A stretch of DNA of 64,000 nt from Polaribacter sp. (GTDB lineage: Bacteria; Bacteroidota; Bacteroidia; Flavobacteriales; Flavobacteriaceae), in NCBI GenBank assembly GCA_029250685.1, contig JAQXEU010000037.1, forward strand, positions 62,001-126,000, given 5' to 3'. The first letter of the stretch is position 1. The number at the start of each line of letters is the position of its first letter. The notes under the pieces were generated by a model. That model had not been told where the DNA came from, made no database searches, and saw only the letters and a program-made list of their open reading frames with translations. This document shows, piece after piece, positions 41,076 to 42,780 of this stretch. Position numbers and translations under genes: made by a program.

Positions 41076-41231
41076 TAGAGTAATATTAGTTTTTAGCACG
41101 TCATTTAAATGTCACCTAGCTGTCAGTTTCAGTATTTATAGGTGTTATAACGAAGATAAAACAAAAAAACGTGGTATTTGTACAGTTTAATGAGTAAATA
41201 AGAATCACTTAAATAAAAGTTGCTTTTTTAT

Positions 41232-41261
41232 TTGTCAGATTAAAAATCTATTATAAATTTG
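41232..41261 (+). promoter_or_regulatory. trp operon promoter
   Basis: TTG at 41232-41234 (part of TTTG), a 19-base spacer and TAAATTTG at 41254-41261. It is an exact match to the Bacteroidota consensus. Transcription should begin at about 41265-41268, so the leader peptide ATG at 41269 would be at or within a few bases of the mRNA 5' end. Confidence 0.75.
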
Positions 41262-41268
41262 TTCCTAA

Positions 41269-41316
41269 ATGATGAAACAATTAAACATATGGTGGTGGAA
41301 CTCTCTTAATCAATAA
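41269..41316 (+). CDS. trpL: trp leader peptide with three consecutive Trp codons
   Basis: A 15-codon frame reads MMKQLNIWWWNSLNQ and stops at TAA 41314-41316. Three TGG codons in a row (41290-41298) in so short a peptide, just downstream of a consensus promoter and upstream of a terminator and trpE, fit a control peptide of ribosome-mediated attenuation. The ATG at 41272 is an alternative start. There is essentially no 5' leader, so initiation would be leaderless or nearly so. Confidence 0.8.
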   Translation: MMKQLNIWWWNSLNQ

Positions 41317-41376
41317 GTGAGAAGTAAACCTATATGTAAAATATAAAAAAAGGCTTATCTCACGATAAGCCTTTTT
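41301..41376 (+). promoter_or_regulatory. trp attenuator: alternative hairpins
   Basis: Four segments can be drawn. Segment 1 (41301-41308, CTCTCTTA) pairs with segment 2 (41314-41321, TAAGTGAG) in 7 of 8 positions. Segment 2 (GTGAGA, 41317-41322) can instead pair with TCTCAC (41358-41363), extended by AG/CT across a two-base bulge, which breaks the terminator stem. Segments 3 and 4 form the terminator. A ribosome stalled at the Trp codons would cover segment 1 and free segment 2 for antitermination. A ribosome at the stop codon would cover segment 2 and allow termination. The pairings are seen; the mechanism is inferred. Confidence 0.72.
41347..41376 (+). terminator. trp attenuator terminator
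   Basis: Perfect 13-bp stem AAAAAGGCTTATC/GATAAGCCTTTTT with loop TCAC, ending 12 bases before the trpE ATG. Confidence 0.85.
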
Positions 41377-41388
41377 CAGTTCTATAAA

Positions 41389-42780
41389 ATGAAGAAAATA
41401 AAATTTAATACAATTACAAAAAGAAGAATTTCAGACACAATTACACCGGTTGGTTTGTATTTGCGTTTTAGAGATAAATTTTCAAACACGTTATTGTTAG
41501 AGAGTTCAGATTATCATAGTAAAGAAGAAAGTTTTTCTTTTATTGCTATTGAACCTGTTTTTTCAATGAAAGCAGATAAAAATATTTTTTCTACAAACTA
41601 CAAAGGAAAAGATCTTGATAACCAGAATATTGATGGAAATTTCTACCAGTTATTTGATGGATTTTGTAATAAAGTGGATTTAAATTGTGATGAAGAAATC
41701 AAATCTTTCAATGGTTTGTATGGATACACCACTTTTGATTCTGTTCAGTATTTTGAAACCATAAAATTTAACAATCCAGATGCACCTTCTGCAATTCCGG
41801 AAATGCAATACAGTTTTTACAGATTTATTATTGCCATCAATCATTTTAACGATGAAATGACGTTGATTGAGAATATTGAAGAAGGAACGGATTCTAGAAT
41901 TTCAGAAATTGAAACAATTATTGAAGCGCAAACTTTCAATACTCAAAAATTTGATATTGTTGGTGATGAAACTTCAAATTGTACGGATGAAGATTTTAGA
42001 GATTATGTTGTAAAAGCAAAGCAACACTGTAAAAGAGGAGATGTTTTTCAATTGGTTTTATCACGCCAATTTCAACAGAAATTTAAAGGCGATGAATTTA
42101 ATGTCTATAGAGCGTTACGTTCTATAAATCCGTCTCCATATTTGTTTTATTTCGATTACGGAAGCTTCAGATTGATGGGTTCCTCACCAGAAGCACAAAT
42201 TAAAATTTCTGATAATAAAGCAACCATAAATCCAATTGCGGGAACGTTTAGAAGAACTGGTGATATGGCACAAGATATTCAGTTAGGAAAAAAACTATCC
42301 GAAGATAAAAAAGAGACGGCAGAACATGTTATGTTAGTAGATTTAGCTCGTAACGACCTTAGTAAACATGCAGACAATGTTACGGTTGAAGTTTTTAAGG
42401 AAGTGCAGTATTTTAGTCATGTTATTCATTTAGTTTCTACCGTTCGTGGAAAAATTAAAGGAAATCCGATAGAAATTGTTGGAGATACTTTTCCTGCAGG
42501 AACTTTGAGTGGTGCTCCAAAATACAAGGCAATGGAATTGATTAATAAATATGAAAATCAAACGCGTGGATTTTACGGTGGCGCTGTCGGAATTATTGGA
42601 CTAAATGGTTCAGTAAATTTGGCGATAGCAATCCGTTCTTTTGTGAGTAAAAACAATGTGTTGTATTCGCAAGCTGGAGCAGGAATTGTAATTCATTCTG
42701 ATGAGCAAAAGGAATTACAAGAAGTAAATAATAAGTTAGCGGCGTTAAAGAAGGCGTTGCTTTTAGCAGAAAACATTTAA
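41389..42780 (+). CDS. trpE: Anthranilate synthase component I
   Basis: Chorismate-utilising subunit that, with TrpG, makes anthranilate from chorismate and glutamine. The 463-residue protein ends in the chorismate-binding domain: VFQLVLSRQFQQ, PSPYLFYFDYG, GSSPE, NPIAGTFRRT, LSEDKKETAEHVMLVDLARND, GAPKYKAMELI and the final YSQAGAGIV. An N-terminal ESSDYHSKEESFSFIAIEP segment resembles the Trp feedback site (LLES), suggesting allosteric inhibition. It is the first gene after the attenuator; trpG follows after one base. Confidence 0.95.
   Translation: MKKIKFNTITKRRISDTITPVGLYLRFRDKFSNTLLLESSDYHSKEESFSFIAIEPVFSMKADKNIFSTNYKGKDLDNQNIDGNFYQLFDGFCNKVDLNCDEEIKSFNGLYGYTTFDSVQYFETIKFNNPDAPSAIPEMQYSFYRFIIAINHFNDEMTLIENIEEGTDSRISEIETIIEAQTFNTQKFDIVGDETSNCTDEDFRDYVVKAKQHCKRGDVFQLVLSRQFQQKFKGDEFNVYRALRSINPSPYLFYFDYGSFRLMGSSPEAQIKISDNKATINPIAGTFRRTGDMAQDIQLGKKLSEDKKETAEHVMLVDLARNDLSKHADNVTVEVFKEVQYFSHVIHLVSTVRGKIKGNPIEIVGDTFPAGTLSGAPKYKAMELINKYENQTRGFYGGAVGIIGLNGSVNLAIAIRSFVSKNNVLYSQAGAGIVIHSDEQKELQEVNNKLAALKKALLLAENI

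Follow-up and report, generated by a model that had tools for sequence, protein, structure and literature searches.

In the analysed window (a stretch of 64,000 nucleotides of Polaribacter sp. DNA, taken as a whole), the region upstream of trpE very probably (with a probability of roughly 0.87) represents a ribosome-mediated trp operon attenuator, a member of the Bacteroid-trp family, with a leader ATG predicted to lie near the 5' end of the transcript. The attenuator itself is ordinary, with textbook logic and in a known Rfam family. While the type of switch and the Rfam family are known, the surprise, as far as sequences can tell, seems to be that the tiny leader gene is placed almost at the start of the message and has been kept there across the Polaribacter/Tenacibaculum group. 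The features of the region are listed in Table 1.

Table 1. Features of the trpE leader region and the trp operon (positions are those of the window).
Feature	Position	Strand	Details and basis
Bacteroidota sigma-A type promoter	41231..41261	+	TTTG 41231-41234, 19-nt spacer, TAAATTTG 41254-41261; read from sequence, and comparison
Predicted transcription start	41266..41267	+	4-5 nt past the box; spacing taken from Flavobacterium johnsoniae
Leader peptide ORF	41269..41316	+	15 codons MMKQLNIWWWNSLNQ, stop codon TAA 41314-41316; sequence and comparison
Three tandem Trp codons, presumed stall site	41290..41298	+	TGGTGGTGG; sequence and comparison
Inner 1:2 helix	41301..41321	+	CTCTCTTA 41301-41308 with TAAGTGAG 41314-41321; 7 of 8 pair
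Outer 1:2 helix	41285..41337	+	ACATATGG 41285-41292 with CCTATATGT 41329-41337; part of the structure drawn by the Rfam model
Segment 2	41317..41322	+	GTGAGA, immediately past the stop codon of the leader
Segment 3	41358..41363	+	TCTCAC, last two bases of the left terminator arm plus the terminator loop
Intrinsic terminator (3:4)	41347..41376	+	41347-41359/41364-41376, 13 bp, loop TCAC, T5
trpE, first gene of the trp operon	41389..42780	+	ORF; starts 12 nt past the terminator
trp operon trpE-G-D-C-F-B-A	to 47873	+	genes named by inspection of their translations, without family search

The trp attenuator of Escherichia coli has tandem Trp codons and follows a 1:2, 2:3 and 3:4 pairing logic; its leader ORF is preceded by a longer 5' UTR, which includes a Shine-Dalgarno site. 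The element described here has the codons and the logic in common with it, but segment 3 is mostly terminator loop, and the leader ATG apparently lies near the 5' end. To our knowledge, the mRNAs of Bacteroidota lack Shine-Dalgarno sequences. In the proposed mechanism, ribosomes would load, leaderless or almost so, on a leader ATG that is 2-3 nt from the 5' end. A shortage of charged tRNA-Trp would make the ribosome stall on the TGG run and open both 1:2 helices, which would set segment 2 (GTGAGA) free. The free segment 2 would capture the terminator-loop segment (TCTCAC) once this is transcribed, and RNA polymerase would continue into trpE. With Trp in good supply, the ribosome would advance to the stop codon and cover segment 2, and the terminator would form. 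This stall-at-Trp logic, already put forward in a preliminary description of the region, is supported by the match to RF01692 (see below), by the conserved tandem Trp codons and by the conserved alternative pairings. Upon direct reading, the consensus promoter, the 15-codon frame with three consecutive TGG codons, the 1:2 (7 of 8 bases), 2:3 and 3:4 pairings, and trpE 12 bases beyond the terminator were all found where that description had placed them, while the outer 1:2 helix is a pairing absent from it.

Taken alone, the region (241 nt) matches RF01692 (Bacteroid-trp, "Bacteroidete tryptophan peptide leader RNA") from end to end (model positions 1-131) with 44.0 bits (E 2.6e-4), which is below the gathering cut-off of 49 bits. 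No family reached its gathering score in an Rfam scan of the whole window, and the 16 other Rfam matches in the region, all far below their cut-offs, are taken as chance, mostly terminator likeness. That the element is new to the databases is ruled out by the RF01692 match. RF01692 is listed by Weinberg et al. 2010 (PMC2864571; here and below, statements on published work refer to the available parts of the cited papers). The location before trp genes, the leader ORF with Trp codons, the stem as drawn and a terminator that begins with GGCTT are common to the family and the host element. Bacteroid-trp has already been placed before the trp operon of Flavobacterium psychrophilum and likened to the leader-peptide mechanism of E. 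coli (2019; PMC6414381). Indications that amino-acid operons of that species are preceded by leader-peptide attenuators have also been reported (PMC9723704); a near-5' start of the trp leader is not mentioned in the available parts of either paper.

Among the best 80 of 160 TrpE relatives (a set in which the host's own record may be absent), the closest are Tenacibaculum and Polaribacter records, with 94% identity for the best one. By this protein, the host is within the group that holds records of both genera. The preliminary description had spoken of a flavobacterium; this stands for the family (Flavobacteriaceae), whereas Flavobacterium in the narrow sense is ruled out by these nearest relatives. 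Within the genus group, RF01692 was found at E <= 0.001 in 100 of 116 genomes, host included (57 of 116 above the cut-off), and a TrpE-like frame is downstream of the leader in 99 of the 100 matching loci. Of the 16 genomes without a match, ten have a TrpE orthologue (77-85% identical) that is directly preceded by a weaker match to RF01692. For the other six, five have only distant TrpE relatives (31% identical or less), and one has a C-terminal fragment plus such a relative. One of the 16 (G030) has a weak RF01692 match (E 0.007) that is not beside trpE, and no leader was found there. In wider samples, RF01692 is present in 88 of 120 genomes of the Flavobacteriaceae (host included), 7 of 149 of the class and 18 of 198 of the phylum.

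The preliminary description had proposed to look for a conserved leader ORF with Trp codons in related genomes. Such an ORF of 13-17 codons, containing TGGTGG, was obtained in 100/100 genus-group loci, which means only that no locus failed the rule, since TGGTGG was part of the rule by which leaders were found. Three Trp codons are present in 94 loci and two in the remaining 6. The rule missed 2 of 130 loci (L121 and L122), and L122 was read separately. There is no other in-frame ATG before the Trp codons in 70 of the 100 loci, and in the other 30 there is one 3 or 6 nt later; in-frame GTG or TTG codons between the leader ATG and the Trp codons do not occur in the 100 loci.

In the host locus, the TAnnTTTG box is 7 nt from the leader ATG. 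For F. johnsoniae, probable promoters have been defined by 4 or 5 nt between this box and the start (PMC6847099). With this spacing, the 5' UTR of the host transcript is predicted to be 2-3 nt, so that the leader start codon would be 2-3 nt from the mRNA 5' end and loading would be leaderless or almost so. Gaps across the genus group are 6-10 nt in 100/100 loci (exactly 7 in 77), as measured to the leader ATG, the first in-frame ATG after the box, from the closest box within 80 nt; this nearest-box rule can shorten a gap. Together with the published spacing, this corresponds to a 5' UTR of about 1-6 nt. Ten further genomes of the genus group have a gap of 7 in nine loci and of 9 in one (L260, read by eye). 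The spacing is a real conserved DNA pattern in the group. A box 6-10 nt ahead was found for only 3 of 2388 other ATGs of the same loci (with a slightly stricter rule, allowing no G at the two free positions), and a TTG occurs 16-26 nt ahead of the box in 97 of the 100 loci, compared with 857 of 5000 random positions in the same loci.

These counts support the earlier placement of the leader ATG at or within about 4 bases of the transcription start, with the start itself predicted from box spacing. An alternative is a true promoter further upstream, in which case the attenuator would have an ordinary 5' UTR and the conserved box would not be the main start. This is unlikely, given the constancy of the box, its frequent TTG partner and its rarity before control ATGs. 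A second box (TAHHTTTG) within 120 nt upstream, as an upstream promoter might have, is present in 4 of the 100 loci but is missing from the other 96. A case from another genus is L112, where a second box 14 nt further up gives a gap of 18 instead of 4, and the value of 4, taken from the nearer of the two boxes, may be misread. Against a near-leaderless start, 17 of the 100 loci have an in-frame ATG, GTG or TTG upstream of the chosen ATG and before any stop codon; the nearest of these is in or before the box in 12 loci and after the box in 5.

A leaderless leader of an attenuator has a precedent in trpL (rnTrpL) of Sinorhizobium meliloti, which encodes a leader peptide of 14 amino acids with its ATG as the 5' end of the transcript (PMC7298713). 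That species belongs to another phylum, and its 5' end is reported, whereas the one discussed here is deduced from promoter spacing. Leaderless mRNAs account for 5.5% in F. psychrophilum (PMC9723704), and 87% of the F. johnsoniae transcripts with promoters of the above type carry leaders of >10 nt (PMC6847099). A description of a near-leaderless trp leader in Bacteroidota was not recognised among the open-access literature matches listed, as far as their available text goes.

In contrast to the 6-10 nt of the genus group, RF01692 elements from other genera of the family have a gap of 11-22 nt in 45 of 80 readable trp loci (7 of 87 loci were lost by the rule). A gap of 0 in L159, where the ATG is upstream of a second in-frame ATG, may be misread. 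For the best 80 of the 160 TrpE relatives, all of which have a leader and which come partly from the same genomes as the sets above, the gap is 6-10 nt in 68, 3 nt in one and 12-19 nt in 11. These 11 belong to other genera or carry no genus name. The gaps of 12-19 nt include Lutibacter, Flavicella and Urechidicola records, with leaders that are otherwise like those of the group (WWWNSL). In a TrpE tree (59 rows, quick method), a short gap (10 nt or less) needs five changes, and the starred branches force two. A repeated origin of the short gap is suggested by this count.

A second comparison is provided by the his leader of the genus group. Before hisG, a conserved leader ORF in which three to six His codons follow each other (e.g., MNFIQLHHHHFYNCSQAI) was found in 27 of 29 loci (L195-L223), and the gap is 16-19 nt in 25 of the 25 that have a box. 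Boxes were accepted in a relaxed form (A, two of A/C/T, TTTG) within 40 nt, the strict scan having found 2 of 29. HisG (PF01634) had no match in the host genome (G000) but is present in the 29 other sampled genomes of the group; thus, his and trp are not compared within the host genome itself. The missing HisG may be an assembly gap, as the assembly is 95.76% complete. In F. psychrophilum, structured 5' elements without Rfam hits precede hisG and pheA (PMC9723704). For pheA, a scan of 29 loci turned up leaders in just two, both with a gap of 18 nt, which is too few to be used. Upstream of pheA in L228 and L233, a Phe/Tyr-rich leader (MNLQYIWTRFYFYFYFNKS type) is located 18 nt past the box and is followed by a terminator-like hairpin.

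Because of the his gaps of 16-19 nt and the gaps of 12-19 nt in 11 of 80 trp loci, the short gap looks specific to trp as against his, and it also looks derived, probably in the Polaribacter/Tenacibaculum group and perhaps not only there. A tentative extension, to which we would give slightly short of even odds, is that the trp attenuator of this group has shed nearly all of its 5' UTR and has been kept so, while the his attenuator stayed ordinary, and that leaderless loading has been selected. The ribosome would then engage perhaps as soon as the 5' end emerges, and several other genera of the Flavobacteriaceae, with gaps of about 5 nt, would be separate cases. Selection on the short gap and truly leaderless initiation are both what we infer from these patterns. 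Nature offers a comparison here, in that related genera of a phylum lacking Shine-Dalgarno sequences have this attenuator either with an ordinary 5' UTR or, as predicted, without one. As attenuation depends on the relative timing of ribosome and RNA polymerase, an effect of leaderless loading on this timing is worth testing, and such a comparison would allow it.

The 1:2, 2:3 and 3:4 pairings, which exclude each other, are present and conserved, with covariation support only between lineages and for 2:3. Segment 2 has two alternative partners, the leader codons past WWW (inner 1:2) and the region of the terminator loop (2:3). The predicted transcript (41266-41388) folds with a z score of -4.86, and none of 200 shuffles was as stable. 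Neither the 2:3 antiterminator nor the terminator is shown by the Rfam model, the last positions of which are unpaired, ending at GGCTTGTC. In the genus group, 91.4% of the cells are paired for the inner 1:2 helix (one pair changed on both sides), 97.5% for 2:3 and 98.0% for the terminator, with no pair changed on both sides in the latter two. This lack of covariation is due to arms that are nearly invariant; it is expected and is no evidence either way. The outer 1:2 helix is less well kept (76.7% of cells paired). It has 20 cells that changed on both sides, all in one pair; only 1 of 500 shuffles was as high, yet a slid register reaches 25, and we consider its covariation ambiguous. Its own-sequence pairing is only modestly above that of shuffles (12.3 vs 10.0 in the group, 12.8 vs 10.9 in other genera).

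Two tests speak for 2:3, complementarity above that of shuffles and a difference between lineages. In 98 of 100 loci, GTGAG is close to the leader stop codon, with its first base at -1 to +10 nt relative to that of the stop. The region around the stop codon pairs with the terminator loop with a score of at least 12 in 97 of 99 group loci (shuffles: 11%) and in 78 of 80 loci from other genera (shuffles: 16%); one group locus, L034, was left out because no hairpin passed the rule. When loops were swapped between the two sets, the mean score dropped from 14.1 to 10.6 in the group and from 17.0 to 16.0 in the other genera. The latter pair with the swapped loop nearly as well, so that co-adaptation is visible in one direction only. 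Covariation of 2:3, which the preliminary description had suggested looking for, is not seen within the genus group (0 double changes) and is confined to one position across genera. At this position, the 179 loci have G-C in 99, A-U in 35, other standard pairs in 8 and non-pairs in 25, with 12 not scorable. The genus group has G-C wherever the position could be scored (95 of 99), and all A-U pairs and non-pairs are in other genera. The difference is therefore one between lineages and could reflect few events.

Folding with parts of the leader masked, which was done without a polymerase footprint, agrees in part with the mechanism. With the 3' end of the transcript at 41364 or 41368, the probability of 2:3 is 0.95 if a ribosome sits on any of the Trp codons and 0 if it sits at the stop codon; for the free RNA, the values are 0.25 (end at 41364) and 0.05 (end at 41368). 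Once the transcript extends to 41372, the terminator prevails at equilibrium whatever the ribosome state (0.99-1.00), so that antitermination would have to be a kinetic capture. It is this need for kinetic capture that most weakens the mechanistic claim. The dominance of the complete terminator and its nearly invariant stem would also suit a simple terminator with a constitutive fraction of readthrough, behind a leader ORF that is translated without regulating anything. The loop of such a terminator would be expected to vary freely, but 95 of 99 loci have the same TCTCA[C/T] (ATCTCA[C/T]GATA with its neighbours), which is complementary to the segment at the leader stop codon, and the three Trp codons are kept in 94 of 100 loci. 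We regard this alternative as very improbable. Regulation by a Trp-binding protein or a riboswitch instead of a stalled ribosome, for which no supporting point was found, is more improbable still, given that the window contains no Rfam match at gathering level, that a search for the TrpR family in the host genome found none (0/1), and that the conserved coding of WWW and the position of the stop codon would be left unexplained.

Three RF01692 matches outside the family (L131, L132 and L135) have GTCGTAAGG near the leader stop codon and a different terminator loop; by the nearest-box rule, their promoter gaps are 23, 22 and 59 nt, respectively. In one of the 99 group loci (L091), the terminator loop is GTGAGA rather than TCTCAC, which resembles an inversion of the hairpin, and with GTGGGC as segment 2 the 2:3 pairing is lost there.
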